DNA of 64,000 bases from Piper betle (taxonomy: Eukaryota > Streptophyta > Magnoliopsida > Piperales > Piperaceae), in contig JAURVB010006679.1 of the NCBI GenBank assembly GCA_033002965.1, positions 1 to 64,000 on the forward strand. The letters are read 5' to 3'. The translations under genes and the position numbers were made by a program. Below are positions 1,661 through 51,717 of this stretch, piece by piece (within the stretch, counting starts at the first letter, position 1; every line of letters starts with the position of its first letter). Below the pieces are notes generated by a model. It searched no databases. It was given only the letters and a program-made list of their open reading frames with translations, and was not told where the DNA came from.

Positions 1661-2054
1661 AAAAGAATATTATCATCCATCACATATAAGGACAAAAATC
1701 CGAGCTTGACATATTCATAAGGATGAGGACCATATAAATGGTGAAAAATGGTGATTGGCATGTAAAACTAATTCTGAGTGCTACTCTTTTGACTTTTGGA
1801 CAGAAATGCCTCACAATTATTCTTAAAACTTTATTGGGTTGATGTCCGCGCGAGGTGAAGGCATTCTTGGACTACATTTTGCTGCAACCAATTCAATATA
1901 TTAAAAAAATTCAATAAAAAATCCATGAATAGTTTGCAGCAAATCTTTTGATGTTTTGTCCAGCTAACAAATTGCCACTTTAAAGTCCAAATTTATCCAT
2001 TTTAGAACATAAATTACAACCATCCAAATTATCCTAAAAAGCTGTGTAAGACAA

Positions 2055-7689: not shown

Positions 7690-7724
7690 AACATCTACAT
7701 TGATGACGATGTGAACGGTCATCG

Positions 7725-8485
7725 TTTAACACCCCGATACCGGTTAACCTAAGAACCAGATCAGAAGTGTTATGATTGAGTCAAGACATGTTTAAATCAA
7801 TTAATTTATAAGACATGTATGAGACAACTGACCGAACAAAAGATTGGAAGGCACAACTAATTGCATAGCCAATGCTAAACTAAATATACATGAATACACA
7901 TCAAATCCAAACAAAAGAACGAATGAAAACAACGACGTGATGAGAACAAGTATGTGTAGCATCTATCTGTCCTTCCACCAAAGCTGACCCAATACATAGG
8001 AATACAAGATCTATATATATAATAAGAAAAATGTCAACAACAAGTGTCATTGATCCGGAAAATGACTAGTACAAACTAGCAAATAGAATCTAATATTCCA
8101 CGAGGAAGGAAAACCATATATAATCTCTATGAGAACACTCAAAGGGCATCTACTAAAGAGCCATCAAGTTTCGGACTTGATAGCATCTTGAACTGAACTA
8201 GTGTTATGCCATTATTGACAATAATTAGTCCCGCTCTCGAGAAAAAGCACATATCCTAAGCGGTCTTCAAACCTTTATATAATGTCTGGCCAGGAGCACA
8301 AAGGCTTTATACTCTCAAACAGTCATCTTTAATATCCTCTGATACCACAAGTTTAGACATGTGTTGTACACAACAATACATGTCTACTTTAAGCCTCTCC
8401 AGATATGAGGAAATTCTAAATGTAGAGATGTCAAAATCCCTCTAGAATGGAACAACTCTCTCACTAATTCAGAGCCTGTTGTGAC
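7725..8485 (-). mobile_element. Reverse fragment of the TGTAACACCCC-type long LTR family
   Basis: The left edge TAACACCCCGATACCGG corresponds to the reversed 3' end of this family (compare 52884 onward). At 8430-8485 the words TCAAAATCCCTC, GGAACAAC and TTCAGAGCC are in the same order as at 53100-53145, and are the reverse of GGCTCTGGATTAG...CCATTCCCGAGGG at 34349-34390. The middle is too diverged to align by eye. Confidence 0.5.
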
Positions 8486-8491
8486 CTGCAT

Positions 8492-9985
8492 ATGCACATG
8501 CTCATGGTATATGCAAGGTCAAATTTACCAACTTTTGGCTCACTAAAACAACTGGAGATGGAATTTGTACATAAAACAACTGAGCCACTTGTTCGATTTT
8601 TGAGATTGGTGGATAGTGATGAAAGACCATCAATATCATTTATTTATGATGAAATGCAAAAGGCTATAGAAGAAATAAAAGTGGTACATGGCATGAAAGT
8701 AGAACGATACAAGTTATTTGTTTATATCATTACTAAGAGATGGGCGAATCAATTTTGTCATCCTCTTCATGTTGCATCATATATGATTAATCCTCAAACT
8801 TGTTATCTCCCTGAATCTATCATTGTATGTTCTCATTTGACTTATGTACCTTTATGATTTTTTTAACAATTTTATATTTCTTCTGTTTGACTTGGAATAA
8901 TTTTGTAGCCAAATGAACTATATCGTGCATTCAATGATGTCATTTGTTGTTTGGAACTCGATAACGTAGCTCAATCCATGGCATCTTTGTAGGTCAAAAT
9001 ACTATTAATTTTAATTATATATATTTATGTATAACTAAATATGATTGCTAATTTTGTTTTAATATTTTTAGTGGTCTGATTTTGTATATGCAAAAGGAGA
9101 TTTTGGATATTCTCTTACAATTACCAATAAAGAAGTGCTTCATCTAGGTAAAATCCACATTTCTATATTTCATTTTTATAGCAAGCTTATAAGTAAATCA
9201 ATTTGTCAAATGTAGCATCATGGTGGGAGTAACATGGTATAAGTTGCCTTGAACTACACAAGATAGCTATAAGAATACTTAGTCAAACTTCATCATCATC
9301 GGATTGTTAACATAATTGGAGCACTTTTAACCAAGTACATACCAAAAAAAGAAATCAACTTGCAAGGAAGAGAGTAAATGATCTTGTATATATTCATTAC
9401 AACATGTGGGTAAAAGAAAAAGAGTTGAGATGGAGGCATAAATATGATGCAGTTAGTGAACATTTGAGTTTGGAAGACTCATTAGATGAGTGGGTTAGAG
9501 AACGGGACAACCAATCACCATCGGTATGTTTAAATAAAGCTTACATCATATTTATGATTTTATGTATGATTTTTTTTAGAATTAAAATAAATAGGGTGTG
9601 ATTTTTTTCTATGTAGGATGATTTCTTTGGTACCAATGTTGGCAACAGTGATGGTAAAGACGAAGAGGCCTTTGTAGCAAATCAAAGTGGCAGCACATTG
9701 AAAATTGCAATTGGATCATGTTCTAGTACGTTTGATGGTTTTTCTTTGCCTCCTCTTCCTAGTGGACTTAATGTTGATATTGGTATATCTATTGACTTAC
9801 AACATAATTTGTTTTTGCCTCCTGTACCGAAGGAACTTCATATGAGTAGGAGTTTTATGTCTCTTTTTACGCAGGGGTCTCGTGTTGATGCGGGTGAGAG
9901 CTCTACTCTTCCCATTGGTGATAGTGATTCAGACTCCGAAGATGCTCCATATAATGAATTACATGATTTAGTAATCTCCATGTAA
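8492..9985 (+). pseudogene. hAT-family transposase gene, C-terminal part, decayed
   Basis: The first block (8492-8857) reads like the middle of plant hAT/DUF659-type transposases: PLVRFLRLVDSDERPSISFIYDEM, then RWANQFCHPLHVASYMINP. After about 9213 comes the C-terminal dimerisation region, with WW, LSQTSSSSDC, HNWSTF and RVNDLVYIHYNMW in the expected order. These blocks are separated by gaps that look like introns, with GT at the left and TTTGTAG or TTTTAG at the right (about 8831-8909, 8989-9070, 9147-9212, 9523-9616). The last block (9617-9985) is acidic and ends DSDSDSEDAPYNELHDLVISM. In-frame TAA codons interrupt the dimerisation block (after WWE and before HNWSTF), so no product is expected. 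The N-terminal part, with the zinc finger and first catalytic region, is absent. LTR fragments bound it on both sides. Confidence 0.75.
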
Positions 9986-16668: not shown

Positions 16669-17014
16669 GCTCTCAGTTCATTCTGAGATTAGGTGGCCTC
16701 CCAGTTCATTCTGAGATTAGGTGGTCTCTCAAGTCATTCTGAGATTAGTCATTATTAGCTGTCAGGCTCATTCTGACATGTACATTTTTGGCTGTCAGGC
16801 CCATTCTAACATGTACATTTTTGGCTGTCAGGCCCATTCTAACATGTACATTTTTGGCTGTCTGGCCCATTCTGACATATCCATTTTAGCTGTCTGGCCC
16901 ATTCTGACATATCCATTTTGGCTGTTTGGCCCATTCTGACATATCCATTTTGGCTGTTTGGCCCATTCTGACATATTCATTTTTGGCTGTCAGGCCCATT
17001 CTGACATATCCATT
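16669..17014. repeat. Minisatellite: 31-bp units then eight 32-33-bp units
   Basis: At 16669-16750 three units share TTCATTCTGAGATTAGGTGG. From 16758 to 17014 eight units follow the pattern GCTGTCAGGCCCATTCTGACATATCCATTTT with substitutions (CAGG, CTGG or TTGG; ATGTA or ATATC). Neighbouring units are most alike, as expected for local expansion. There are no unique spacers between direct repeats, so this is not a CRISPR array. Confidence 0.9.
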
Positions 17015-22326: not shown

Positions 22327-22401
22327 CCATGCAAAAGGCGCCGCTAGATCACCCTCACAAACACTTTTGAAGAGGTGAATATATATTGACACCATCAAGG
22401 G

Positions 22402-25400
22402 ATGGATCACATGAGGAAGCACGAAAGTGTGAACAGCGAGGACACATGGCAGGCGCAGTCCCTGCTATGGAGCACCATCTACAGCTACGTCAAATCCATG
22501 GCCCTCAAGTGCGCCATCCGACTCCGAATACCGGAGATCATCCACAACCATAGCCGCCCCGCCACCCTTCAGGAGCTAATGGCCGCCGTCCCCATCCCCG
22601 CCGCCAAGGCCGACCACGTCCGCCGCCTTATGAGGCTGCTCACCGACTCCGGCATATTCGCGGTAGACGAGAACAGCGCATACGCGCTCACCCCGGCCGC
22701 CCGGCTCCTCTTGCCGGGCCCCGGCGGCACGAGCTTGGCTGTCCTCTCGCTCCTGAGCTTGGAGCCCGCCGTGGTGGACCTGTGGAACCATATAGATGAG
22801 TGGTATAAGGTAGAAGATGAGGCGGTGGTGCCCTTCCAAGTAGCCCATGGAATGAACTCATGGGATTACTTTCGGAGCCAGCCTCGGGTGCTCGGCTTCT
22901 TCAACGACGCCATGGCGGCGGACAGCGACCTCATCATGCAAACCATGGTAGACAACTGCCGCGACGTGTTCCGGGGTCTTCGTTCAGTGATTGACGCCGG
23001 CGGGGGTATTGGCATGGCAGCCAAGACCATTGCCAAGGCCTTCCCAGAGATCGAAGTCACCGTGCTTGACCTGCCGCATGTGGTCGCCGGCTTGCCCGAG
23101 AAGGAGGATGACTCCGGCGTCAAGTTTGTGGCAGGCGACATCTTCAAATCCATTCCCTGCTGACGCAGTGTTCCTCAAGGTAAGTGAATTGGTAAAATGA
23201 TTTCTTTTTATTTGCACTTATTTTTTGCCCTTTCTGTTAAAAAATAACCATTTGTCTGGACAAATTTCGTCGCAATTTTAGTCTAGGACAAACTTATAGG
23301 AGATCTGTATCAATCATGTTGATATATTTTCTTACAAATTTGATTAACCATTGAAATTATTTTCTTTTATTTTTAACATCACTAATTAACAATAGTTAAT
23401 TGTGGAGTGACCGAAAAGGTTTTTATAAGAATCTCATAATTAGTTAGTCCAGACACTCATGCATTAAATACATATTGAAAAAAATAATAAAGCTTATCAG
23501 TTTATACTAATTAGGTCCGACTATTACAATGTTTTAGGTTTGATTAGCATGAGAAACTATAATTACATAGCTAAAATCATGTCTCAACATCTTGTGCGTG
23601 TGTGTATATATATATATATATAATTACGATATATATAATTACGATACGTAGAGCAAGTCAAGTATGGATTGTAACGGTAGATAAATGTTCTTTTTTAATA
23701 TTAATCAAGTCTTGATCAAGGGGCAAGTAATATGACTCTTGGTAATTAGAAGCACCATGCATTCCAAAACCCGACACTCAATGTTCATTCAATTGTTTGT
23801 GTAATTGAGTTGAATTTGCTAGGTTTAAAGGGGTAATAGACTTCAAAATTGTGTGGGAGAATTGTGCCAAATTGAACTTAACAACGATAACATAGATAAC
23901 TTTTATACCACGATAATTTGATACTATATGGCTGGTACATGTAAGGAAGAATTTGATAAAATAAGACTTTATAGGACCTGGTCCTCAACTTGAAAATCTC
24001 TACTAAGAAGCCTCAACTCGGGAGCCTGATCTCAACATGGGAAACCAAAATGCTATAGAGCCATGTATAGATATTGAGGACATCTTCTAGACCTATAGGT
24101 CTATCTGGTATATTCTACTTAACCGCATTCAATGTTAAGTCCTGAACATTCAGCGGGAAGTATTCAAGACTTATTTAGGCTCTTGCTGTTGCATGAACAT
24201 TCTATATTACACATGAGACTTTCCTATCTAGAATCATTCAATTGAGAAACCCCTTAATTATATTCAATATCAAATTAGGTTACTTTTTAAGAGAATCAAG
24301 AGTCCTACAACATGATCAATTCTTCAATACATGAACATATTAAAGATATTGTAGAGTATGTACTCATTATTCTCATTTAAAATTAAAATATTTTGATGCT
24401 ATAATTTGTGTTAGTTCTAATTTTGGTATAGCATTTTTACTGATTTTGGTATAGTTATTTTTTACTAATTTTGGTATAGTTATGGAATAAGAAATGATGT
24501 CGTTTTAAGTATTACTTGACCAGGGACTTTAACATAGCATAGTTTAAAAATTCAAAATTTGGACTCGGCTCTGCACTTATTTATATTATTTTTCAGTTAA
24601 GTAAAAAAATATTATATAAAATTAGCAATTATTACTCTCTGACAATTAAAATTGATAAATGTATAATTTTATCACTTTAAAATATTGATATGCCTAAATT
24701 AAAACAAAACTAAGTTGTTTTAAGAACTTTTTTATTACTTAACTTGGGGAGTCAGTTAGTGAAGCTGTCATTAGATAGTCATCTATGGAGTTTGAATTTA
24801 GAAGCCAAGGAATGAAATCAAGTTGGGGAATTTTTGAAGTCAAAAATGAGTTTTAAAACTATACCATATTGTCATCCATGAAGTCTTCTTACAATCAATT
24901 GTTATCACAGTATTTGATTTAGAATGCCTAAGTGTGAAATCAAATCAAGGAATTTTTTTGTGTTAAAATGAAGTAATTTTAGAAATATTACAACAACTAC
25001 ATAAGAAAACATATGATAAAACTCTTGACTTTATTATAATTGATTGAATGACCAAAATCTATTCAAATTGTCACATCCAAGAATATTAATTAAATATGTT
25101 AAATATTACGCTAATAATGTAAACAAATAATTAATAATATTTTTAAAGTGATTTTAAGAGACTTCAAAGACTTTAATAATATTTTATTAATTGATTTGTG
25201 GAAATAAATAGAAAAAATAATAGTCTTATAAAAACAAAAGTCATTAATGAGTTTCAACTCTTGAGAGGAGTCATTAATTGACCTAATAAATTTGTGGAGT
25301 TAAAGTAAAAATGAGTTTGAAGTAATATTAGTGGAGCTATCATTGGACCACAAGACTAGATTGATTGCTTGATGAATTGATTGATTAAAATGGGCAGTCA

Positions 25401-30242: not shown

Positions 30243-30764
30243 GTCATATGAAGAGCAATGAGTGAGTGATCAACAAGGTGGAGACATGGTAGGCGCAGTC
30301 CCTGCTATGGAGCAACATCTACACCTTTGTCAAATCCATGGCTCTCAAGTGCACCATCCGACTCTGCATACTAGAGATCATCCACAACCATGTCCTCATG
30401 CCCGCCGTCCCCATCACCACCACCAAGGCCGACCCCTCCGCCTCCTCATGAGCCTATTCACTGACTCTGACATCTTTGCAGTAGACCAGAATGGTGCATA
30501 CTCGCTCACCCCGGCTTCCTGGCTCCTCCTGCCAGGCCCTGGCAGAACTAGCTTGGCGACCATCTCACTCTTGAGCTTGGAACCAGGCTGGATGGACCTG
30601 TGGAACCATTTAGATGAGTGGTATAAGGTAGACAAAGCTGGGTGTCCAGCTTTGATGTAGCACACAGGATAAGTGTTTGGGACTACCTCCAGGTGGAGCC
30701 TCGGCTGCAAGGCTATTTCAACGACACTGTTAGTGACGAATTGGGACTACCTCCAGGTGGACCC
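30243..30764 (+). pseudogene. O-methyltransferase copy 2, exon 1 (truncated)
   Basis: The DNA follows exon 1 of copy 1 from the start codon region onward (GGCGCAGTCCCTGCTATGGAGCA is shared exactly). Damage is extensive: a Gln codon has become TAG at 30290-30292, roughly 28 bp are missing after the HNH residues (near 30390), two bases are lost near 30435, and another shift follows near 30635. Readable pieces include SLFTDSDIFAVDQNGAYSLTPA, LSLEPGWMDLWNHLDEWYKV and VWDYLQVEPRLQGYFNDTVSDELG. Exon similarity stops at about 30741, before the SAM-binding loop. A 20-bp duplication of exon sequence follows and then GC-rich repeat DNA begins. No product is possible. Confidence 0.85.
30678..30761. repeat. 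20-bp direct repeat at the exon break
   Basis: TGGGACTACCTCCAGGTGGA occurs at 30678-30697, where it is genuine exon sequence, and again at 30742-30761, at the junction with the GC-rich insertion. The second copy looks like filler DNA copied from the exon during break repair. Confidence 0.85.
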
Positions 30765-37527: not shown

Positions 37528-38119
37528 TGCCTATATCTTGTCGTTTACAAGCGTTTAAATTATCGAAGTTGTACTTGCATGAATACTTGACTATCATTGC
37601 ATAAAAATAAAATACTTGATCATGAATAATAATTGATTTTCACGTGCTTACATGCTCTTGATTTTTGTCGCCAGCCTTTAAAATTCATTTACTTACGTCT
37701 TTATTTGCTTGGACGGGTTTGCGCATCTTTGTCACCAATATTAGTTACCATTCCCAAGGAAGAAGTTGCTAAATTAACCATTGATATCATCCCCTTTTAT
37801 GTGCACAATCAAATCTAATGTCAAGTGGGTAGCTAGCTTCAAATTAAATCAATGTTACTCTTTGGTGACAGAGATAAATAATCACTATTAATTTATTTGA
37901 TACAAAATTCAATTTAATTCTGGTGTTGCACATACGAGATTAGTTCCTATTTGTTGAGGGCAAATTAATGACTTGTTTAATTTGGATAAGTGATCAATAC
38001 TGCTAGGACTAAGCATTGTTCGGTAAAGTGACCGGACTGAATTTCATATGAAAGCTTAGTTTGATTGTAAATCGCCTCTGATCTGGACGTACGTATATAA
38101 AATTTATACAAGTGATAGG
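37528..38119. other. Downstream flank of OMT copy 2, no gene seen
   Basis: AT-rich sequence with no similarity by eye to the flank of copy 1. The frame at 37633-37818 has no known domain. Confidence 0.4.
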
Positions 38120-38124
38120 GTACA

Positions 38125-40071
38125 TGTCACAGACGTGATTCATGGGCGTGCCGGGAACTAGGGTTTAGGTGTTGTCCCTAGGTGTCCCGCGTCTATGATG
38201 GGGTAGCGGTGGCTATCCGAGTGGTGGAAACAACATACGGAGGCTAACCTGTGTTGAGTTGCAAGTTGCAAACCGAGGTGCACGAGCTGCTGTGTGATCG
38301 AGCATGGCATCGAGTTACAGCAATGGTGTCGGCACATGGGTCGGTATTGGGTGTACCGAGCATGTGGCCGAGTCCAGGAAGAAACCTCAAGTTGCTGCTG
38401 ATCGGTGTTTGGGTTGGCATATCGAGGTTGTGGTGCAACCGTGGACCGAGTACGCAGCATAGGGTGCCAAGCATTTGCTAGTACCGAGCAAAATAGCGGA
38501 ACCGTGCTGGAAAACTATACCGAGCACTGTAGCGGGCGAGCACGAGGTCGTGCGCGCTACTGTGTGCGTAAGGAGCGACAGTGCATGGGCATGCACGAGC
38601 GGTGGTGCTGGTTCAGGGCGATGTTGGTGGGCCATTGCTGGCAGTTGGTCGGTGAATTGCTGCGGGAGGTTGAGCCATGTCTGGACGGTGCTGGAGTCGA
38701 GCCAGCGGGCACGACGGGATGACCAACAGTGCAGCCAAGACGGTTTGTGATAAACATCCATGGACATTGCTGAGGGTGTATCTTGGTGGAAGATATGATC
38801 CATATCCAGACGTGGAGGCTGCAACAGACTTCTGAAGATAACCACAAGGCCGTTGGGAAGAACCTGGACGTGGTGTACTGCTAGGTTGCTGGATACGGTG
38901 GGGATTGCAGATCTTTGTGGATAAAGATGCTGGCAAATATCCGGAGTTATCTGAAATCAGAAGGGCGTGCATATATATGCATGGGGTTATGCTGAAAAGA
39001 AGGGTGTGTGATTCAGGAGGAATCAGGCCAGATCCAAAGAGAAGACTCTTGAGTTCAGAGTCGGAACTCAGAGAGGAGGACGCTCGGAGGAGGATCGAGT
39101 CTCTGGAGGTCAGTGGATCAGGAGAGATCGAGTCCGGATTGGTTGCTCGAGAGATCTGGAGATCAGGAGATCAGGAGATCAGGAGATTGAGGAGAGATCG
39201 AAAGATTGAGAGGCCAGATTAAGGTGAGACGTGGGACTGAATCAAGAGTGGAATCGAGTCTGGTGAGGAGGAGAGTTCCTGAGATTCCAGTCGTCTTCCT
39301 TGGTGAGAAAACAGCGTGGTGCGGCTGGTGAGAAAGAAGCGTGGAGTTGCTGCAGCCGGTGTTCGTGGTGAGCGCTGAAACTCCATCGGCTTGCTGGAAT
39401 CCAGATACGCGTTGTTAGATCGCTGGTGTTGGCAATCGGGGATAGAGTTACTCGGGGAGTAATTCTGGTGCGCCATTGTATTTGTGGGTACATTGGGCGA
39501 GGCTGTGGGGGCTGTCCACGAGCCGAGCAAGTGCTTGAGAGGAGAATTCGAGTGCTTGTAAAATCCTTATGATCAGGTGAATGATATAAGGTTGGGAAGT
39601 GTTTTCCCGTAATCTGTGGTTTACTTGTTGGCTGTCATTTTAGGCAGGGAACTTCTGTATCCGAGGTCGCGGTCGAGGTTTACAAGGCACGCAGTAGAGT
39701 GGGCTGGTGCTGAGACGAGCAAGGGTAGACGGCACGAACCCATGGCGTGTTGCTGGCCGGGTGATCGGGCAGTGCTGTGTGGAGTGCTGTTTGACTTCTG
39801 GAACAGCCTATCGGCAAGGCGTGTCAGTAGCCAGAAGTGCTGTGTTGGTGTTTGGTGTGGTACCAATACACGGTGATTGAGCGAAGGGTTGAAGGCAACA
39901 ACCTCGGGGGTGTTGAGGTTGGCCGAACACGGGGTTTGGTGTTGGCATGCAGGCTTCCGTAGTCTCTTCATAGCTGCATTCTTGGTGTTAGGCTGGTGTT
40001 CTCGGTTTGAGAATACGCCGCGCGGACTAGTTAGGGCGAAAAATTTTGGTCCTTGAATCAGGCCCGTGACA
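38125..40071. mobile_element. Solo LTR, 1.95 kb, TSD GTACA
   Basis: It starts TGTCACAGACGTGATTC and ends GAATCAGGCCCGTGACA, giving matching inverted ends, and is flanked by GTACA at 38120-38124 and 40072-40076. It is GC-richer than its surroundings, with repeated GTACCGAGCA and AGATCAGGAGATCAGGAGA words (39160-39190). Many open frames appear on both strands but none shows a protein family. Its orientation cannot be fixed without a related full element. No other copy is in the window. Confidence 0.8.
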
Positions 40072-40076
40072 GTACA

Positions 40077-40539
40077 CCACTTTGGCGCAACCGTCCAACC
40101 GAAAACCGATTTAATACTTTTATTAGTTTACTCTATTTGGAACTGCTATAGAATCAAATAAATAAAAAACCAACAAGAAAAAGAAAATGAAGGATGAAAA
40201 TGACAAATTTATGGAAAGGGGTTTTATTCGTAATTTGTGACTTGAGGGAACTATTTTATGTGTTCACTATTTGTGGGTAATGGGTGATCAATTGATGGTA
40301 AATTTAGCACCCTCAAATCGTAAATATATTAAATTATCCCCACAAGTTATAGATTATGAGTAAAAGCCCTTCTTTTCATATATTTCTAAAGAGAAATTGA
40401 AGCCTTGCTTCTAGACCCAAGCACCGTCAACGCTCATCCAAGACTAGAAAAAGTGATACTGAGTGTACATCACTTTTAAGTATCTAATATTTACAATAAC
40501 CAAATCACACGTCCTCCAGTGATGATTTTCAAAAGTACC
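40077..40539. other. AT-rich spacer, no gene seen
   Basis: Nothing recognisable. It separates the solo LTR from the truncated left LTR of the gag-PB1 element. Confidence 0.4.
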
Positions 40540-42381
40540 GGGGGTCTCGTTGGCAGCGAGCCCTGTCAACATTGTCGTGAAGCCTTCTTGTTGTTGTTGC
40601 TGCGAAGCCTCATTGCTGTCCGTGAGGGAGCCGAAGAAAGGTTCGGTTGCTCGCCAAAGTTTTGCCACTGGGTCATCGTGTTGAAGCAGTGTCCCTGGAA
40701 TCCATATCTTTGCCACCTTAAAGTCTGGCTTCCTCGACTACCACCGTGAAAAGAGAATGAAGTGTTGCTACTGGAGTGCATTGAAGCCTTGCAAGTTGAT
40801 GTTTTCCTTTGCTAGGAAGTTCTAAGCCGTAAAATATCAGAGCCCACCGGAGCCCTGTACCATTCCCGCCGACAACGAAGAACACGATAGCATCTTTGTT
40901 TTGCAGGTTCGGCGTCCAATTTTCCAGAAAACCTCGACCTTATTGTATCAGTACAAGACCATTTGCTTGGAGCTTAGAGTGCCCCCGACACAGCACCCCA
41001 CAGATTTTCCGCTGGAGACTCCTACCGTCGCCGGAATTCTGCCAGCAAGCAGCCGATTGGAAAAGTCAGAAAACAGAGTAGCGAAGGTCTGCTTTTGCTA
41101 ATTTTTTTCTACCAACACCGGTCATTCCTAGTGTTGCCGTGAGGTGAAACGTGAAGGCAGAGGAGTGGTCTAGAAACCCAAACTGAGTTTAGCCAAAGAT
41201 CGTCGCTGTAGCCGCCGGGAAAAATCGGGAAGCGAGGAAGTTGTTGGCTAGAAAAGTAAGAAAACAGAGCAGCGAAGATCTGATTTTGCTAATTTTTTAC
41301 CAACACCGGTCATTCCCTGTGTCGCTGTGAGGTGAAACGTGAAGACAGAGGCAAAGTGGGTTTTGCTAAAGTTCATCGCTGTAACCGCTAGGAAAAATCG
41401 GGAAGTGAGGAAGTTGCTGGCCGGAAAAGTAGAAAACAGAGTAGCAAACAATAGATTTCTTGGATTTTTTCTGACCAGCGCCGGTCATTCCCACCCTTCC
41501 GTTCATGATCAAGTGAATATAATGAAATGATATAGAAACCCAAACGGAGATCCACCGGATTTCATTGCTGAGGTCGCCGGAAAAAATTGAGAAGTGACCG
41601 ATTGGAGCAGCGTAGCATAGAAGTGCAGAAAGGTGTCTAACTTTCCGGCCTCTGACCGACCGACCGAAGCCACCACCGACAGTTGAACCACCGTCAAAAG
41701 ACCCATAGGTCTATAATCTATAGTTCTAGGCAATCTCTGCCACCTTCAGCTGCCGGAAGAGGCGCGCGCCGGAGCCACCAAAACCACCGTTGCACCACCG
41801 CTGCAGCTGGGTTGTCGGACCCGTTTACTGCTGACCGCATCCCCTCTTGTCGTGTCTGAGACCAAATTCTTCTCCCCAGTCCACATCCGCAAAGCCAAAC
41901 CGTGACCAGTTAGGAAACCGCGACCCAGATTGGAGCTGGTGTACCGTACACCACCCGTAGACTGGCGCACGTAGAAAGAAAGGAGCGGACGTACGCCATC
42001 CAGTCCGATCCAGCATTTGTTTGGTTTGAACCAACCTGGAATAGCCTGGTTCAGCCTATGAACACTTTAGAAATAATTTGAAGGCCTTCTAGACTGATGA
42101 GGGCAAATTTATCTAAAGGCAGCAAAAATTCACTGTTTTGTGTAACTTGTAAAAATCAAACAAGAAATAGTGGATTGTGAGTACTAATCTCACCATGGAC
42201 TGACTTAGGGATTCAAGTTGAACCTAAGGAACCATGTAACATTTTACTTCATGTGTGTAACATTTTCTATTTCCATCACACTATATCTTTGAGCGGCAAG
42301 GGTGCCTCGGTCCCACCGAACCTTCAAACCCGAATCACGAAAGAACCGATTCGAGGGGGCGGACGATCCCACGCCCGAACA
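40540..42381 (+). mobile_element. Left LTR of the gag-PB1 element (5'-truncated)
   Basis: From about 40575 it matches the right LTR from about 46205 to its end, with scattered substitutions. The first roughly 590 bp of the right LTR, including its TATA box, have no counterpart here, so the promoter of this copy is gone. A 109-bp segment of the right LTR (46370-46478) is also missing, precisely between two TTAAAG words. It ends GCCCGAACA, next to the primer-binding site. The exact left break could not be placed. Confidence 0.75.
41059..41600 (+). repeat. Tandem repeats of about 190 bp within the left LTR
   Basis: Units begin (G)GAAAAGT..AGAAAACAGAG at 41059, 41250 and 41423. Each carries an ACCGGTCATTCC and a GAAAAATCGGGAAG(C/T)GAGGAAGTTG block; the last is degenerate. 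The right LTR has the same arrangement, so the repeats predate the insertion. Confidence 0.8.
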
Positions 42382-42387
42382 TATTTT

Positions 42388-42407
42388 TGGCGACTCTACT
42401 GGGGACC
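42388..42407 (+). other. Primer-binding site
   Basis: TGGCGACTCTACTGGGGACC begins six bases after the left LTR. It starts TGG, as needed to pair with the CCA end of a tRNA. From memory, similar TGGCGACTC..CTGGGGA sites are found in Tat/Ogre-type Ty3/gypsy elements and are usually attributed to tRNA-Arg. The tRNA match itself was not checked. Confidence 0.65.
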
Positions 42408-42455
42408 AGCTAGAAGGTAGCAGTGTCGTTTGAAGATTTGTGCGAGTAAGGAGGA

Positions 42456-44072
42456 ATGGCACCAGAGACAAGGAATGCGGCACGACAAAGAAGTAATAAT
42501 GAGGATAATTCATCCACATCAACTGAAGGTGGGCAACAATTTGAATTAAACATGGAAGCAAGTCAGCACATAGCGGGAAATGTGCGTGAAAGAATCCAAC
42601 AGCTCGAAGCAGTGTTGAATGAAGGAAATGAAGGAGGAATTACTCCAAGAAGAAGCATGTTGAGACGAGAAGATCAAAGTCCAAGAAGCAATGAAGAGAT
42701 AAACCAACCATTAGAAGCTGAACAAGTGCTTTTGACAGCAACAAATCAGCTAAGTGGAGGACAAGTACTGAATCAAGCAATTGAAGAAAGATTCCGCCAA
42801 AGTGAAGAGCGGATGCAACGAATTGAGGATATGATACAACAAGTGCTCGCCCAGATGCAACGGGCTAGTGCTGCAAACGGGAGCTCGTCAAGAAGAGAAG
42901 ACGACCATCCCACACAATGTCCAACAATGGACCAACCCCTGGAGGCTAGACAGATGTCTTCAACCTCTGAAAATCCAATTGTATCTACCTCACTCCCAGC
43001 TACTGGCACAACATTGAGGGATCAAGCTAACATCCCTCACGAAATCAACAATTTGTTTCTCATTTCAAGTACTGAGTCCACCCACCTAACATCTACAACT
43101 TCAACTTCGTTGCCCGAACAGATTTGGATGCAACACTATCCCACTATGCAACCGATTCGGACTGAACATAGTTTACTCCCTCACTCAACATGGTTTCCAC
43201 AACCACCGTATTACCAACCGCCATACCCATACCAGTGGTATAACCCTGCATGCTCCCAACAACTATCTTCTATGGTGTTTCCACCATCAATCACCACCAC
43301 GGTACCCATCCCAACGGTACCGTCAGCAATGCCAATAAGTCAAATGTCAGTTCCTATTACAGATTTACCAGCAAGTCAGCCACAAGCCCAATTGCAAACC
43401 ATGTCAGTAGCACCAATGTCAGACCTTTGTTATGAAGAGTTGAAAGCAGAAATGGATGCACAAGCCGCACTTATCACTGCATTGATTGGAAAGAAAGATA
43501 AAGAATCAAGTGAAGCGACAAAGCGTCTTCAACCATTAGCTGATGAAGTCTACACAGAGGTTTTTCCTGAGAAGTACAAGTGCCCAACCTTCACGAAGTT
43601 TGATGGAGATGGCAACCCTGAAGATCACATCACAATCTTCGAGATTGAGTGTGGAACAATCTCGACAAATGAAAAGTTAAAGTTACAACAATTCCCAGCT
43701 TCTCTCAATGGTAATGCACTTAGATGGTTCAACAATCGCCCACCCAGATCAATCAGATCATGGGAGGAACTCATCGAGCAATTCACAGCTCATTTTCAGT
43801 CAATCGATATCCCGATAAAGATTGAGCATTTAAGGCAATGTCAGAGAAAACCAGGTGAAGAATTTGCTACATATGTAAAAAGATTCAGAAGTCTTTCATC
43901 CCAAATGAAAGAGACTCCAGAGATCAAGGAGCTTGTAAAGATTTGCGCGATGAATGCTGGATCAGCAGCTTGGTTCCTGAGTGCTGCACAATGCAACACA
44001 TTTGAAGAACTCTTTGAAAGGGTGCTGATATATGAGGAACTCAACAGAATTTCTAGCTTCAACAAAGAATAA
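42456..44072 (+). CDS. gag: Gag protein of an LTR retrotransposon
   Basis: A complete 538-residue frame starting with ATG 48 bases after the primer-binding site. Residues 1-150 are polar, with a coiled-coil-like stretch (QAIEERFRQSEERMQRIEDMIQQVLAQMQRA). Residues 150-350 are Ser/Thr/Pro/Gln-rich with a PPYYQPPYPYQWYNP segment. Residues about 365-530 are a Retrotrans_gag domain of plant Ty3/gypsy type: KFDGDGNPEDHITIFE, LKLQQFPASLNGNALRWF, SWEELIEQFTAHF, EFATYVKRFRSL. Gag forms the particle that holds the element RNA. The usual zinc knuckle is not here but in the next frame, which overlaps by 41 nt in the +1 frame. That means either programmed frameshifting or one indel that split a single frame. 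The reading frame is undamaged, which is notable next to the truncated left LTR. Confidence 0.9.
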   Translation: MAPETRNAARQRSNNEDNSSTSTEGGQQFELNMEASQHIAGNVRERIQQLEAVLNEGNEGGITPRRSMLRREDQSPRSNEEINQPLEAEQVLLTATNQLSGGQVLNQAIEERFRQSEERMQRIEDMIQQVLAQMQRASAANGSSSRREDDHPTQCPTMDQPLEARQMSSTSENPIVSTSLPATGTTLRDQANIPHEINNLFLISSTESTHLTSTTSTSLPEQIWMQHYPTMQPIRTEHSLLPHSTWFPQPPYYQPPYPYQWYNPACSQQLSSMVFPPSITTTVPIPTVPSAMPISQMSVPITDLPASQPQAQLQTMSVAPMSDLCYEELKAEMDAQAALITALIGKKDKESSEATKRLQPLADEVYTEVFPEKYKCPTFTKFDGDGNPEDHITIFEIECGTISTNEKLKLQQFPASLNGNALRWFNNRPPRSIRSWEELIEQFTAHFQSIDIPIKIEHLRQCQRKPGEEFATYVKRFRSLSSQMKETPEIKELVKICAMNAGSAAWFLSAAQCNTFEELFERVLIYEELNRISSFNKE

Positions 44073-45471
44073 AGGAGCATCAAGCAATGCAGTCACCGAG
44101 CTTGGTCACATGGATCATGAGTGGAAAGTGAAGACTAAGAATGGAAGTGAAAATCCAAGATATACACCTCGAGAGTCTCGACAACAGCGTGAATGGAGGA
44201 ATATTAAAGATTACACCTTCAACACTGGAGATACTGAGAGATGGTTTGACGTGTTGAAGAGCAAAGGAAAGATCACACCATGGACTCCAAAAAATTTGCC
44301 AAAGCCAGAAGATGAAAAGAACGAAAATTTTTGTCGATTTCACCAGAGGTTAGGTCATTCTACGGTGAAATGTCGAGACATGATGGAGAAGATCCAAGAG
44401 TTACTTGACAAAGGTGATATAAAGTACAAAACTTCAACTGCCAATGTGATGACAATGAGCCACTCATCTTCACTAATGAAGTCTCAAAAGAGAATGGAAA
44501 AGCTAGATGAAGGAAGGAAAAATGAGAAAATGGATGCCCCGATGGTTAAGGTCAACGACATGGAAATGCCACCTGTTTCCACTAAAGAAGTGAAGAAAGG
44601 GTTCCCTACATCTCCAATGATGCATGAGTTTGAAGTTCAAACTGATCAAAAAATAAGACTTTGCGAAGGAAAGGAGCTCGATAAAGAAAAGATAGAAGAT
44701 CAGCTTGTTGTTCAAACAACTTCGACTCAAGAAGAAGTTAAATTGAAGGATTCAATGCAATATGGAAAAACAAAACTTCGCCTGATTTGCAGTTACGGTG
44801 GAAAGATAGCGATCCAAGGAAGGAAGAGACATTACATTGGAGGAAACACACGACTTGTTATAGTGGATCGTGATTGTTCTTATTCAAGTCTTGTTACTCG
44901 AATCAAGAGTACATTTTCTACTAGCAGCCCTTTCATGATCAAGTGTCAGCTACCAGGTGAAAGCTTGAAGTACCCTATCACAATTGCTAGCAATGAAGAC
45001 TTGACAAATATAATCGAAGAGCAAGAGGAGTTCAACACAAACACAAGATCAACTTCTCGCCTTCATTTCTTTGTATTACCGAAGAAATCAAGATCACCAT
45101 CCAACTCGACATTGGACAAGAAGTTGGGGGCGTCAATCGAAATTACTACTCCTAAAAGGTTTAAAAGAGAAGCCAACAGCTCAACAAATAGTACGAGGCA
45201 TCACAAAAGAACAAGGTCTCCTCCATATCATAGAAGGAAAAGAAGACATCATGAGATCTTCTCGCTAGAGAAGCTAGATGCTAAGAAAGAGAAGTCACAG
45301 CTGAGAGTAGAAACGAAATTGTCATTCCCCCATTGCTACCCAAATCTAAAAAGTAAAAGGAAAGAAATATGGATTTGGAGACCACGGTTGTCGAGCAAAG
45401 AAGTCACTCTCCTAAATCAAAATAATGGGCAGTTATCACACAGTGACCCAGAAGGGGTCATCCTAGCTTGA
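44032..45471 (+). CDS. Gag C-terminal region fused to a captured PB1 domain
   Basis: An open frame of 479 residues with three parts. Residues about 10-135 continue gag, with a zinc-knuckle-like FCRFHQRLGHSTVKC (Cys-x2-His-x4-His-x4-Cys) then EKIQELLDKGDIKY, as in Tat-type gag proteins. Residues 136-245 are a charged linker. Residues about 247-350 (44770-45081) read as a plant PB1 domain: KLRLICSYGGKI, then YIGGNTRLVIVDR, SSLVTRIK, IKCQLPGESLKYPI, SNEDLTNIIEE and a last strand LHFFVLP. The first Lys and part of the acidic loop (SNEDL) are kept. PB1 domains join head to tail in kinases and transcription factors. The C-terminus is very basic and Arg/Ser-rich (RHHKRTRSPPYHRRKRRHH). No protease, reverse transcriptase, RNase H or integrase follows before the polypurine tract, so the element depends on others. 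The ATG is probably not the real start; translation likely enters from gag. Confidence 0.8.
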   Translation: MRNSTEFLASTKNKGASSNAVTELGHMDHEWKVKTKNGSENPRYTPRESRQQREWRNIKDYTFNTGDTERWFDVLKSKGKITPWTPKNLPKPEDEKNENFCRFHQRLGHSTVKCRDMMEKIQELLDKGDIKYKTSTANVMTMSHSSSLMKSQKRMEKLDEGRKNEKMDAPMVKVNDMEMPPVSTKEVKKGFPTSPMMHEFEVQTDQKIRLCEGKELDKEKIEDQLVVQTTSTQEEVKLKDSMQYGKTKLRLICSYGGKIAIQGRKRHYIGGNTRLVIVDRDCSYSSLVTRIKSTFSTSSPFMIKCQLPGESLKYPITIASNEDLTNIIEEQEEFNTNTRSTSRLHFFVLPKKSRSPSNSTLDKKLGASIEITTPKRFKREANSSTNSTRHHKRTRSPPYHRRKRRHHEIFSLEKLDAKKEKSQLRVETKLSFPHCYPNLKSKRKEIWIWRPRLSSKEVTLLNQNNGQLSHSDPEGVILA

Positions 45472-45605
45472 GAGCAAAATATTATTCTTCGAAAAAAAAA
45501 CGAAAAAAGGAGAAAATGCAAAAAAAAAAGAAAAAAGAAAAAAGCAAACTATATTTTTTGCCGATTCTTCTTTCCAAGTTTGCGAAAAATCGGCAAGGGG
45601 GCTAA
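45472..45605 (+). other. 3' untranslated stretch with hairpin and polypurine tract
   Basis: A long A-rich run follows the stop. TTGCCGATT (45558-45566) and AATCGGCAA (45588-45596) form a perfect 9-bp stem around a 21-base loop. The second arm runs straight into AAGGGGG (45595-45601), the likely polypurine tract that primes plus-strand synthesis. CTAA separates it from the right LTR. Confidence 0.7.
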
Positions 45606-45834
45606 TGTTTGTACATATTTATCCGAAAAATATTTATATTTATCCGGTTATGTGGATAATATTTATCCAATTATGTGACAATACTCAGCCACTTACGTGG
45701 ATGACTTCCTGCATATTACAAGAGAATTGGTCATACGGTTCCAAAACTGCCGGAGAAAGAATTGCCAGAGGAAGAGGTAGACATTGTTCTACAGCCGTTG
45801 GAGGAAATCTCTCACTCAGGAGTTATCCCAATTC

Positions 45835-45842
45835 TATAAAAG
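45835..45842 (+). promoter_or_regulatory. TATA box in the right LTR
   Basis: TATAAAAG lies 230 bp into the LTR, a usual place for the U3/R boundary promoter. In this orientation a surviving promoter would drive transcription toward 48 kb, out of the element. Confidence 0.6.
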
Positions 45843-46831
45843 CCGGGTGTTATTGCTGAAGCAAGAGGGGCTCGTACGATAAAGAAAAAACTTTTACAGA
45901 GAAAGAAGAAAAGAAGACAGAGCAGGGAAGGAGCCCCTCGCTGGAGATCATCTCCTGACCGTCTCACCATGCGACCCTGTCTCACTAACCAATACATGGC
46001 TTGAAGTACCCTGCCGTCTGCTATTGACTCATCATAGATGAGATCATCAAGAGTTGCCCTATCACCACGCTGCAGCCAATCTACCCAAAGGTTGGTTTTT
46101 CTATTTTGCAGAAAAGAAGCAAGGAATGGAGAAGATTGCCTTTCCCCGTCATGCATGCCTATGACGTCTCCACCCATGAATCCTGATTGCTGCGCCTGCC
46201 AATTGCTGTGAAGCCTTGTTGTTGTTGCTGCTGCGAAGCCTCGTTGCTGTCCGTGAGGGAGCCGAAGAAAGGTTCTGTTGCTCGCCAAAGTTTTGCCACT
46301 GGGTCATCGTGACGAAGAAGAAAGGTGGAGCTTTGAAGCAGTGTCCCTGGAATCCAGATCCTTGCCGCCTTAAAGGTAGAGTCGCTGCCAAGTGCCGTTG
46401 CTGCTACCTACAGAGCAGCCTGGTCAACGCCGCCAAGGAGTCCTCTTGGAGTCACGTTCCTAACTTGCTGCCTTGCTATTAAAGTCTGGCTTCCTCGGCT
46501 ACCACCGTGAAAAGAGAATGAAGTGTTGCTGCTGGAGTACATTGAAGCCTTGCCAGTTGATGTTTGCCCTTGCTAGGAAGTTCTGAGCCGCAAAATATCA
46601 GAGCCCACCGGAGCCCTGTACCATTCCCGCCGACAACGAAGAACAGGATAGCATCTTTGTTTTGCAGGTTCGGCGTCCAATTTTCCGGCGACTTTTCCGG
46701 ACAACCTCGACCTTATTGTATCAGTACAAGACCATCTGCTTGGAGCTCAGAGTGCCCCCGACACAGCACCCCCAAGAATTTCCGCCGGAGACTCCTGCCG
46801 TCGCCGGAATTCTGCCAGCAAGCTGCCGATT

Positions 46832-47405
46832 GGAAAAGACTAGAAGAACAGAGTAGCGAAGGTCTGATTTCGCTAATTTTTTCCGACCAATACCGGTCGT
46901 TCCTAGTGTCATCATGAGGTTCAAATGTGAAGATGGAGAAGTGATCTACAAACCCAAACTGAGTTTCGCCAGAGATCGTCGCTATAGTCGCCGAGAAAAA
47001 TCGGGAAGCGAGGAAGTTGCTGGCTGGAAAAGCAGAAAACAGAGCAGCGAAGGTCTGATTTCACTAATTTTTTCCGACCAACACCGGTCGTTCCCAGTGT
47101 CGCCGTGAGGTGAAACGTGAAGACGGAGGAGTGGTCTAGAAACCCAAAGTGAGTTTCGCCAAAGATCGTCGCTGTAGCCGCCCGGAAAAATCGGGAAGCG
47201 AGGAAGTTGCTGGCTGGAAAGGTCAGAAAACAGAGTAGCGAAGGTCAGTCTCGGATTTCTGTCGTGATTTTTTCTTACCAGCGCCGGTCATTCCCAGCCC
47301 TTCCGTTGTGATCAAGTGAAGATGATGGAATGATATAGAAACCCAAACGGAGATCCACCGGATTTCATCGCCTAGGTCGCCGGAAAAAATTGAGAAGTGA
47401 CCGAT
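46832..47405 (+). repeat. Tandem repeats of about 190 bp within the right LTR
   Basis: Units begin GGAAA(A)..AGAA(A/G)ACAGAG at 46832, 47026 and 47216 (periods 194 and 190 bp). Shared blocks are CGAAGGTCTGATTTC, TTTTTTCCGACCAA, ACCGGTCGTTCC and GGGAAGCGAGGAAGTTGCTGGCT. The third unit degrades after about 100 bp. Confidence 0.85.
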
Positions 47406-48195
47406 CGGAGCAGCATAGCACAAAAGTGCAGAAAAGTGTCCAACTTTCCGGCCTCTGACCGACCGACCGGAGCCACCACCGACAGTTGAACCACCGTCAA
47501 AAGACCCATCAGCGTTCTGTGATCTACAGTTCTGGGCAATCTCTGCCACCTTCAGCTGCCAGAAAAGCTGCCGCCGGAGCCACCAAAACCACCATTGCAC
47601 CGCTGCTGCAGCCGGTGCCCATTTACTGCTGATCGCAGCCGCTCTTGTCATGTCCGAGACCAAATCCTTCTCCCCAGTCCATGTTCGCAAAGCCAGACCG
47701 TGACCAGTTATGACAACCACGACCCGGATTGGAGCTGGTATACTGTACACCACCTGTAGACTGGCGCACGCAGAAAGAAAGGAAGCCAACGTACGCCATC
47801 CGGTCCGATCCAGCATTTGTTTGGTTTGAACCAACCCGGAATAGCCTAGTTTAGCCTATCAACACTCTAGAAATAATTTGAAGGCCTTCTAGACTGATCA
47901 GGGAAAATTTATCTAAAGGTAGCAAAAATTCACTAGTTTTGTGTAACTTGTAAAAATCAAAGGAGAAATAGTGGATTGTGAGTACTAATCTCACCGTGGA
48001 CTGACTTAGGGAGCCAAGTTGAACCCTAAGGAACCACATAAAAAATTTCCTACGTGTCATTTTACTATTTGTAACATTTTCTATTTCCATCACACTATCT
48101 CTTTGCGCGGCAAGGGCGCCTCGGTCCCACCGAACCTTTAAACCCGAATCACAAAAGAACAAATTTGAGGGAGCGGATGATCCCGCACCCAAACA

Positions 48196-48545
48196 TTAAT
48201 AGATTTTGATAATAATATGAGGACCACATAAAGTTAGAATAAAAAAACCAGCATTTTTCACTTGATCCGAGCATGTATCACCATCGATAATATAATCCAA
48301 AATATTAATACTTTAAAACAAAATTATTATACATGAATCATAGTGATAAGTTCTCTTTAGTCAAACATTACCTTCCATATATTACAATACAAAGTACCTT
48401 AAGAAGCCTTCAATGTAGTTTAAACTTTATGAATAAGCCGTCAATGGTTATTTGGGTTCAAACACATATATATTATATATATGTACAAACAAATAGAAGA
48501 GTTTTAACATATAGCATGATATACACATAGCATTACATATCAAGC
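48196..48545. other. AT-rich link, probable 3' end of the copia element
   Basis: It lies downstream (in minus-strand sense) of the RNase H coding end. No LTR with recognisable ends was found. Confidence 0.35.
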
Positions 48546-48990
48546 TTAAAATTTAACAAGTGCCATATGGGCTACATGATCCTTGAACACCTTTGGTGGC
48601 ATGCCTTTTGTCAAAGGAATAACAACCATCAATTCAGCATTAATATGTTCAATGAGCACATCATTCGCTTTAATGCATTTTCTAATGGCTAAATATTTAA
48701 TGTTGTTGTGTTTGCTTCGACTTCTATTTTTTATATTTTTAACAAACACAGCCACTGAATTATCACAATACATCTTCAATGACCTTGAACAACTCAAAGT
48801 CTAGATATGAAACTCTTCAATCATATAGCGTGTAATGTAGCCCCAAAACACGAAATGAACTCGGTTTCCATAGTAGGAGTTGCAACTAAAAAAGCACGTC
48901 TCTATGATACAACCTCGTTAGCAAGCATGAAGATGTATTTATATGTGGATTTACATGAATCAGTGCAACCAACATAATCCAAATTTGAGT
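48546..48990 (-). pseudogene. Ty1/copia RNase H region, decayed
   Basis: Minus-strand peptides in order: YSNLDYVGCTDSCKS (48940-48990), IFMLANEVVS, TMETEFISCFGAT, then MYCDNSVAVFVKNIKNRSRSKHNNIKYLAIR, SIEHI-like IEHINAELMV and PLTKGMPPKVFKDHV. This is the usual C-terminal RNase H of copia pol, including the CDN and TKG motifs. At least two in-frame stops and a frame change near 48800 prevent translation. Confidence 0.85.
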
Positions 48991-49101
48991 ATTCAATGAC
49001 CTCCAAATCAGAAGATCTTTGGTTCCTTAAATGTGCCTCGTAACTTTCTTTCCAACTCTCTAATGTTCAATTGGAGTATTAGTTTGATATGTTTCCAACA
49101 A

Positions 49102-49990
49102 TCAAATAGCAAACGCAATTTCTTGTTTTGTATAGACTTGTACATACATTAGGCTTCTAGCAACCGAGGCATATAGAGTGTTTTTCATTTGTTCCCTGTC
49201 ATGATCATTTTTCAAACATTGATTCAAATTGAAATTGTCTCCTTTTGTTATTGGAGTTACTGAAGGTGTACAATTACTTATTTGAAATATCTCATGAACC
49301 TTATTGATATAGGGTTTTTGAGATAAACCCAAGATACCTTGAGATATATCTCTATGAATCTTATTGACAATAATGTAAGACACTTCACCCATATCCCTTA
49401 TATCAAAATGTTTTAGAGAGAAACTTTTTCACTTCATGTAACAATCTCATATTATTAATTCCAGGTAATATATCATCAACATATAGGACCAGAAATATGG
49501 TCCAATTCCCGCTAACCTTTTGGTATATACATTAATCCTTAATGTTCTCAAAAAAATAAATGAAGATATTACATTATGGAATTTCAAATTCCACTGATAC
49601 AAGACTTATTTCAGTTCATATAATGATTTCTTTAGCTTACAAACAAGATGCTTCCATTGAGGAAAGTTGTTTTCACATCCTTTTGATGTGATTCAAGATT
49701 GAAATGGAGCTACTAATGTCACGATAGTATGATAGGAGTTTTTGTTTGAAAAAGGAGAAAAAGTCTCTCGATAATTGATTCCTTCCTTTCACATGAATCA
49801 TTTAACCACAAGTATTACTTTATAGCATTCAATGTTGCCTAATAAATCTTTTTTAGTTAAGAAAACTCAGTTACAACCAATATCCTTCACCCCATTTGCA
49901 ACCATAGAATCCATCTCAACTTTCATTATGTCCTACAATAATTTTAAATTATTATTATCCATCACTTGTGAAAATGTATAAGAGTTACTT
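49102..49990 (-). pseudogene. Ty1/copia reverse transcriptase region, decayed
   Basis: The 49102-49392 frame holds LGLSQKPYINKV, then KNTLYASVARSLMYVQVYTKQEIAFAI, the C-terminal end of copia reverse transcriptase. Reading further along the minus strand gives CMLMIYYL (the YVDD region, damaged), LKKSLYELKQVLYQWN and, near 49900-49790, DIGCNxVF and KEGINYRETFSP. Several stops and shifts are present, so no enzyme is made. Confidence 0.8.
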
Positions 49991-50500
49991 TTTTCTCCAA
50001 TATTATAGTCAATTGCTTGTAGTAAACAACAAAATCACTAGGTATTGTTATTTTTCTCACTGTAGTTGATCTACTTAATGATTTATCAACATTTTCTGTG
50101 GAGGAGGTTAATTAACTGGTTGCTTAACAACTTGAAGTTATTGATTTTCATCATGAGTAACTTGTTTTACTAGAGCATCTCTAGCCTGACGTGGCTCTCC
50201 ATTGACTATTTGTTCAGCATTACCTAATTAGAATGTATGTAAGTGATAAATAGTATTCTGCTTTCCAATCTTAGAAAACTTTCAATATAATCATCATCGA
50301 AAACTAGCTTTCAATGTAGATCACTCCCACTAATCAAGTCACTTTCAAGAAATTTAGTATTTCTCGATTCCACAATTGTAGTGATATTCAATGGATAATA
50401 AAATCTATACCCTTGTACCTATTGACATAACTAATAAAATACCACTAATAGTCCTTCGGTCTAACTTACTCTCTTGACCACTTTAACCTCGATGGAACAA

Positions 50501-51717
50501 TGTTAAGTGTTTGAAATATATAATATTTCCCCATGTTTTTAATATGATTTTTTACTTCTCGGGTATAAACATTATTAATTTAGTGATATTTTTCATTATA
50601 TTCTAGTTAATTAATATTTTATTAGATATGCTTAATTTTGGTGTTTCAAATGCAGAAAAAGATGAATAAATTAAGCTTTGGATTTGATTGGTCATGACAC
50701 TTGGCCCTACCCAATGGCCACAATTCATGGTGTTCAATGGAGTCGAACAGTTGGAAACTTAAAGGGACATTATAATTAATTAGATTACGTCGATTTGTGA
50801 ACACCCTCTTCGAATTTTTGTATCTCCACTTCTATATAAAGGGGTGGTCATTTGTTGGTATCATATCTCATCTCTTGGCTTCAGAGTGTAGTGAAAGTAG
50901 TAGTTTTAGTTTTGTAATTTCTTTCTTTTCATAATAAAAATTAGTTTCTTTTTATATTGTTTTCTATTTTTATTATGAAGTAGTCTTTATATTTCGTTCA
51001 AAAGAAGAATAGAACTTAACAAGATTTAATTGAATTTATTTCAAACTCTTAAAAGAAGAATAGAACTTAACAAGATTTAATTGAATTTATTTCAAACTCT
51101 ACTCTTTATTCATTCAGATTGTTTGAATTATCATGTTCTTAATGCTAAGAATAGATTGATCACCTATTTCTTAGATTATTAGGTTTAATTAGATTTAGGA
51201 AGAAATTAATTAGATTAATCATTGATAATTCATCATACGACAAGTCTTTTGACTTGTTTGTCGTTGTGGTCAGAAGATACACAACACCGTATGCATTGTA
51301 AGGCAATTTTTAATGCATTATTTTGTTGATTAATCAATTATCACCGGGAGGTAGAAATTGAGGCAAAATAATAGAAGCATGAAGGATTGGGAGCCACCAT
51401 GTCATATAATTATCCTAGATCGACAATCCGAGGGAATAAAAGATAAGAGTAAGATTTGATGAAAATTAAATTCATGTTAAGGGAAATTCGACTCTAGAAT
51501 GAGGTTTATAAGTTTGACTTCGCTTTTAATTTAAAGTTATTACTTAGATTTAGTTAAGTTAGTTATTTTTGTCTTGTTCTTAACTTTATTTTCTTTAATT
51601 AATTTAAGGAAATTCATCTCTTTGTGGGAACGATACTCGAATTTATCATCATACTACTTGTTTCGACCGTGTATACTTGCATGTTATTGAAAATAGTTTA
51701 TTGAAAATAGTCTAACA
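50501..51717 (+). mobile_element. Solo LTR, 1.2 kb, TSD AACAA
   Basis: It starts TGTTAAGTGTTT and ends GTCTAACA, flanked by AACAA at 50496-50500 and 51718-51722. Length is 1217 bp. TATATAAAGG at 50833-50842 is a likely promoter. The 3' end has GGGAACGATACTCG and GACCGTGTATACTTGC, phrases common at the end of plant Ty3/gypsy LTRs. A 48-bp exact direct repeat of AAAAGAAGAATAGAACTTAA... lies at about 51000-51095. A second copy in reverse is at 54438. Confidence 0.9.
50833..50842 (+). promoter_or_regulatory. TATA box in the 1.2-kb solo LTR
   Basis: TATATAAAGG is in a CTTC...GGGG context. The reverse copy keeps TATAAAGG as CCTTTATA at 55221-55228, which fixes the orientation of both. Confidence 0.6.

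Follow-up and report, generated by a model that had tools for sequence, protein, structure and literature searches.

A Ty3/gypsy LTR retrotransposon family of Piper betle, probably semi-autonomous, with a plant PB1 domain joined to Gag in place of Pol

LTR elements that code for gag without pol, like the family in this study, were reportedly described as TR-GAG by Chaparro et al. in 2015; to our knowledge, no PB1 has been described in TR-GAG. Together with TR-GAG, the closest precedent is wheat RLG_Quinta, in which GAG is joined to a domain named DUF1. In the RLG_Quinta/RLG_Cereba system, as the accessible part of the report describes it, we likewise find a pol-less Ty3/gypsy element whose ORF is made up of GAG and an extra domain; its primer binding site (PBS), LTR ends and part of its LTR are likewise common to it and a pol-bearing partner, and recombinant GAG variants occur (PMC11302176). 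The extra domain is described as DUF1, of unknown function, in RLG_Quinta and is PB1 here, and the partner of RLG_Quinta is a CR-domain centromere element, whereas the likely partner here is of the Tat type (PMC11302176). RLG_Sabrina_SA and RLG_WHAM, also from wheat, are likewise semi-autonomous and gag-providing, and are thought to be mobilised by a related full element; they keep a protease, and the accessible text mentions no PB1 in them (PMC9744471).

A Phalaenopsis Gypsy element with an AlkB 2-ODD domain belongs to the Tat family (its RT is sister to Ogre) and keeps a captured host domain across its copies; it differs from the present family in having a complete gag-pol and a separate extra ORF (PMC9289625, accessible part). 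The survey of Gypsy extra domains in 121 genomes in that source does not name PB1 in its main text; because it was anchored on RT, this screen would miss pol-less elements (PMC9289625), and captured-domain surveys of this design would not detect elements of the kind described here. In the MULE-derived MUGB genes, PB1 (PF00564) is likewise joined to a transposon-derived protein (PMC3435246, PMC8616336), but these are domesticated host genes derived from a DNA transposon, in which a separate short exon encodes PB1, and not a mobile LTR element (PMC3435246). Maize Bs1 is likewise an LTR element in which pieces of host genes are joined to gag; its three host gene fragments are different ones, and the accessible parts of the sources mention no PB1 in it (PMC7264820, PMC8616336). 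A review of extra ORFs in plant LTR elements names no PB1 in its accessible part (PMC7264820), and the term is absent from the main texts of PMC11963269, PMC6317226 and PMC6338049. Within the accessible open-licence literature, main texts and not supplements being the scope, we found no description of a gag-PB1 retrotransposon. Gag-providing pol-less elements are known; what appears to be new here is a recognisable PB1 assembly module as the extra domain. Since this module appears to be under selection and the genome also holds a candidate helper, one can now test directly why an element that is itself a parasite of a parasite should equip its coat with an interaction domain.

We analyzed a 64-kb stretch of Piper betle DNA, hereafter the window, which carries one copy of the family on the plus strand and no second copy of gag or ORF2. 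The 5' LTR of this copy (40571 to 42381, located by blastn against the 3' LTR) lacks about 600 nt of its 5' end. It is followed by a PBS, TGGCGACTCTACTGGGGA (42388 to 42405, read from the sequence), which is one base off that of the sampled copies and the partner. ORF1 (42456 to 44072) codes for gag with a long N-terminal part and a capsid domain (PF03732 at 43692 to 43913, E 1.8e-13). ORF2 (44032 to 45471) codes for the remainder of gag, a linker, the PB1 domain (44773 to 45078) and an Arg/Lys/Ser-rich C-terminal tail (45097 to 45468) that is common to the two families of copies, A and B, described below. A PPT-like polypurine tract, AAGGGGG, was recognized in the sequence at 45595 to 45601, and the GGGGGCTAA ahead of the 3' LTR is also present in the pol-bearing partner L055. 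The 3' LTR (TGTTTG...AAACA, from blastn and the sequence) extends from 45606 to 48195. The K2P distance between the two LTRs is 0.110 over 1,799 sites. As a separate observation, the LTRs of family A contain internal tandem units of about 170 to 200 nt that vary between copies (41062 to 41600 and 46814 to 47400 in the window).

The original prediction placed a zinc-knuckle-like C-x2-H-x4-H-x4-C motif and the PB1 domain together in a frame after gag. The motif was found at 44332 to 44373, in the PB1 frame; families A and B have it too, as does the partner. The zinc region, however, still belongs to gag, and the break between the two frames is a frameshift of this locus only; in other copies the same coding sequence runs as a single frame from gag through PB1. 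Regulated frameshifting between gag and PB1 was dropped as a candidate because the other copies need no shift.

We searched the region from 42380 to 45605 against Pfam in six frames, with stops as X and at E<=1. Retrotrans_gag and PB1 were above the cut-off, Ty3_capsid and a minus-strand DUF6450 were below it, and no RT, RNase H or integrase was found. For these three enzymes, the earlier claim that pol is missing before the polypurine tract stands. For protease, Pfam gave no match in the window copy, L040 or L043, but this negative is weak because pol-bearing L055 also scored none; the absence of protease rests on the corresponding part of L055 having no homology in the gag-PB1 copies.

A plant PB1 domain had been predicted after gag at 44770 to 45081, and the profile search bears this out. 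PF00564 matched residues 265 to 345 of ORF2 (44824 to 45066) with 37.2 bits (gathering score 23.6; E 2.9e-9), and the plant-type domain, taken as the Pfam core plus the first strand, extends over about 44773 to 45078. The same match occurs in many other copies, and it is above the cut-off in both L040 (34.7 bits) and L043 (35.3 bits). The OPCA acidic core of PB1 domains is defined as D-x-D/E-x-D/E (PMC7051960, accessible part). In all seven element rows of our alignment, the first OPCA cluster, EDLD in host proteins, is replaced by ESLK, ESFN, EGFN or ESSM, with both Asp lost, and the second cluster, (D/N)EDL, is retained. Acidic residues in the OPCA block number three to five in the element rows, versus five to seven in 23 host rows. 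By profile, then, the element domain is a PB1, but one whose acidic face is incomplete.

The basic column of beta-1 is occupied by Arg in families A and B and by Cys in L035 and L036; Lys is described as not conserved in the kinase-class PB1 of plants (PMC7051960, accessible part). At the beta-3 position where most plant-class host rows carry Tyr, the element rows carry Cys. The net charge of the PB1 is +6 in family A and 0 to -3 in family B and the other element rows. SYGG-class host PB1s range from -4 to +1, and family B and the other non-A rows fall inside this range; a clearly basic PB1 is found in family A only. A single-sequence structure model of the PB1 was poor (pLDDT 58.6, pTM 0.53). 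We also noted that the PB1 of L036 (C9310:48422-51640), with its Cys at the basic beta-1 column, is a more divergent element-type domain, 62% identical to that of the window.

The genome searched for copies was the draft assembly of the window itself (527 Mb, 11,211 contigs). Searching it with ORF2 yielded at least 115 matches (89 of 1,061 candidates scored). Copies of family A are mostly 91 to 99% identical to ORF2, and many have single frames of about 1,000 aa running from gag through PB1. Family B is about 67% identical to ORF2, with frames of up to 910 to 970 aa, and four further relatives are 62 to 75% identical, with 8 to 16 stops each. We scored 150 of 256 candidates in a PF00564 search and 150 of 1,181 in a capsid search. 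The original prediction had looked to further copies in the genome, and these were found: gag lay 0.5 to 2.5 kb upstream on the same strand in 89 of the 150 scored PB1 rows. Single open frames of at least 900 aa (900 to 1075 aa) held 45 of the 150 scored rows, every one of them with a scored gag upstream. Rows typed as host genes had no upstream gag (0 of 27), and another 34 of the 150, neither host-typed nor gag-linked, were left unclassified.

A copy on contig C959, the closest relative of the window copy, has the same split frame and matches the window at 37928 to 45948 (98.9%) and 46247 to 50613 (96.8%), flanks included. We rejected it as an independent insertion, since matching flanks point to an allele or a segmental duplicate. 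Our counts are therefore counts of places in the draft assembly, not of independent insertions. No relative was found in protein databases, by sequence in the PDB, or in bacterial and archaeal genome contigs; viral contigs gave one match at 32% identity, and NCBIfam gave nothing above its cut-offs.

Gag-PB1 units have transposed recently. Among six fetched copies (L040 to L045), four have LTR pairs, three of these four have target site duplications (TSD), and the LTR K2P is as low as 0.003. In family A, L040 has LTRs at about 732 to 3133 and 6353 to 8754 (K2P 0.029) and the TSD TATAT, which lies within an AT repeat; L041 has an LTR K2P of 0.017 and the TSD ATAAA. The LTRs of both are 2.4 to 2.5 kb long. 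In family B, the LTRs of L044 are 0.67 to 0.70 kb long (K2P 0.003, TSD CTCTA), and those of L043 have a K2P of 0.007, with no clean 5-bp TSD found. No full LTR pair was found within the stretch examined for L042 or L045. The PBS TGGCGACTCCACTGGGGA is present in L040, L041 and L043 to L045, and also in the partners L054 and L055. Paired TG...CA LTRs, PBS, polypurine tract and 5-bp TSD all occur in L040, L041 and L044; this set is incomplete in the window copy (its 5' LTR is cut), L042, L043 and L045. Pfam analysis of the open frames of L040 and L043 gave gag, PB1 and a sub-threshold Ty3_capsid, and no RT, RNase H or integrase. In L043, a 272-nt stretch adjoins both ends of the B element (2298 to 2569 and 6909 to 7180, in reverse-complement orientation) with 99.3% identity. 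It far exceeds a target duplication and possibly marks an insertion into a tandem repeat.

Two loci, L054 and L055, have a gag of this kind within frames of 1,508 to 1,608 aa that include RT sequence. In L055, Pfam recognized RT and, in a second overlapping frame, rve integrase and two RNase H domains, one of them RVT_3; it found no PB1. RVT_3 occurs besides RT_RNaseH, ahead of rve. The Tat clade of Ty3/gypsy is defined with an additional RNase H domain (PMC6317226, accessible part), and an L055-type relative is likely a Tat-type helper of the gag-PB1 copies, its Tat membership being judged from the second RNase H domain. No whole intact helper was seen, because pol is split over two overlapping frames in L055 and cut off by the contig end in L054.

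The capsid of the partner has an amino acid identity of 0.79 to 0.80 to family A and 0.87 to 0.90 to family B. The partner and family A have 80 to 84% DNA identity over 211 to 394 nt across the LTR 3' end, PBS and leader, and the partner LTR starts with TGTTTGCAC after GGGGGCTAA, like that of family A. Compared with family B (L043), the PBS is identical and the LTR 3' end is alike; LTR matches are short (49 to 106 nt), and the L043 LTR starts with TGTTCG. The same PBS, the same LTR ends and a similar LTR part thus occur in L054 and L055 and in L040 and L041. For the wheat Cereba/Quinta pair, the accessible part of that report likewise uses PBS, LTR ends and LTR part as criteria (PMC11302176). 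Past the zinc motif, identity between partner and gag-PB1 copies drops to background within 40 to 80 residues, well before PB1. Ten of the 150 scored gag rows lie in frames of at least 1,200 aa; none of the ten is linked to a scored PB1 row, and two of them were inspected.

We then placed the element PB1s in a tree of 30 rows, in which L037 was present as an element row only; L032, L034, L038 and L039, whose host-type PB1 is short or decayed, were excluded. The seven element PB1s grouped together at 93/100, just below the 95 mark of the tool. The plant SYGG...GGxTR class joined them at 98/94, apart from the NLP-type and TPR-type domains. A QLP ahead of the OPCA block is described as marking the kinase and kinase-derived PB1 class (PMC7051960, accessible part). 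As originally proposed, the PB1 was apparently captured from the host, presumably from a kinase-class gene: capture fits because the element PB1s group among plant kinase-class PB1s and no PB1 was found in L055. No donor gene was pinned down among the host PB1s of the tree, where the element branch meets two host branches in a three-way fork. The best host identity to the element PB1 was 42% (L018, L024). We also ran the intron-loss test expected to mark RNA-level capture, and it was uninformative: in the host genes nearest to the element PB1 (L018, L024 and L033), a single open frame covers the whole domain.

Taken together, we consider it quite probable that these copies form a pol-less, semi-autonomous, Tat-type Ty3/gypsy LTR family with one long Gag-PB1 in place of Gag-Pol. 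Reverse transcriptase, RNase H and integrase would come in trans from pol-bearing relatives, and Gag-PB1 would co-assemble with the Gag of the partner. The PB1, presumably an ancient capture from a plant PB1 gene of the kinase class, would add a protein-binding face to Gag, and Gag-PB1 may thereby dock, in a one-sided manner, onto another protein, either a host PB1 or the particle of the partner. Docking would be more likely than self-polymerisation of the PB1, because the acidic face is reduced. Canonical head-to-tail PB1 polymerisation, the simplest form of the putative assembly role suggested in the original prediction, appears less likely, the first acidic cluster being broken in 7/7 element rows.

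Selection on the PB1 part was estimated as Nei-Gojobori dN/dS between families A and B, using three pairs with shared members. The original prediction had pointed to this ratio among copies, and for the PB1 we obtained 0.31 (bootstrap interval 0.18-0.55), 0.28 (0.15-0.51) and 0.32 (0.18-0.60). The other segments gave 0.33 to 0.52 (N-terminus), 0.05 to 0.07 (capsid), 0.09 to 0.23 (NC-like), 0.48 to 0.53 (linker) and 0.27 to 0.32 (tail); the constraint on PB1 is no stronger than that on the tail and far weaker than that on the capsid. Within-family comparisons had too few changes for dN/dS. To judge by these ratios, the PB1 cassette is kept under selection inside the element. Since the linker and the tail, which are not PB1 parts, occur in both families, the capture most likely pre-dates the A/B split, and the A/B divergence therefore most likely arose inside the element.

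We considered whether the PB1 could be a chance passenger fragment without function. Plant LTR elements often capture gene pieces, according to the accessible part of a review (PMC7264820), key PB1 residues are altered here, and the PB1 function is only putative. Nevertheless, this explanation is improbable: the PB1 dN/dS of 0.28 to 0.32 has upper bounds of 0.51 to 0.60 between families, the frame of at least 900 aa is preserved in 45 of 150 scored places, and the same PB1 cassette sits on two gag backgrounds.

Between L040 and L043, capsid plus NC show a synonymous difference of 0.681, versus 0.397 for linker-PB1-tail, and none of 5,000 permutations gave a contrast as large. The history of the PB1 cassette therefore seems younger than that of its gags, as would be expected if template switching carried PB1 between gag lineages. 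The breakpoints are not the same in all copies: in L044, an A-like N-terminus precedes a body of the B type, and the NC segment of L045 is nearer to family A than that of L043 (synonymous difference 0.49 versus 0.71). We speculated, tentatively, that the family gained a captured host PB1 at the cost of its enzymes. A bivalent Gag might then dock mixed particles via its basic side onto host PB1 proteins of the kinase class and thereby influence packaging, location or host signalling to the benefit of the element, and the PB1 cassette might itself be a mobile module, template switching carrying it from one gag lineage to another.

Exchange may also have shaped the window copy. Its internal region is at K 0.011 from that of L040, whereas its LTRs are at 0.23 to 0.27 from those of L040; a like contrast is seen between L040 and L041 (internal 0.028, LTR 0.225), and the LTRs hold the variable tandem units noted above. 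The LTR pair therefore does not date the internal part of the window copy. The simplest reading of these distances is a mosaic formed by exchange between copies, with domestication unneeded. On the domestication explanation, the window copy would be a host gene that arose from an old LTR insertion, its gag-PB1 frames being held open by host selection. At an LTR K2P of 0.110, about 6.5 stops and 9 frameshifts would be expected in the two ORFs under neutral decay, yet no internal stop is present in either ORF and at most one frameshift was seen. However, the internal region is only K 0.011 from a complete copy, so that the LTR pair gives no date for it, and the frame is split in the window while many other copies are whole. 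We regard domestication as very unlikely. That the PB1-like segment, coming straight after gag in frame, is a diverged piece of gag or pol, the reading set against PB1 in the original prediction, is hardly credible, given Pfam PB1 matches above the cut-off, the placement in the PB1 tree, and the linker and pol of L055, which have no recognisable homology to it at that place.

Apart from the element, the window contains an O-methyltransferase open frame with dimerisation and methyltransferase domains (22390 to 23163) and, 8 kb on, a decayed partial second copy (30262 to 30660), recognized as an 81% DNA repeat with a sub-threshold dimerisation match. In addition, a tandem array of about nine units of 32 to 33 nt, GGCTGTC(A/T)GGCCCATTCTGACATATCCATTTTT-like, lies at 16720 to 17014.
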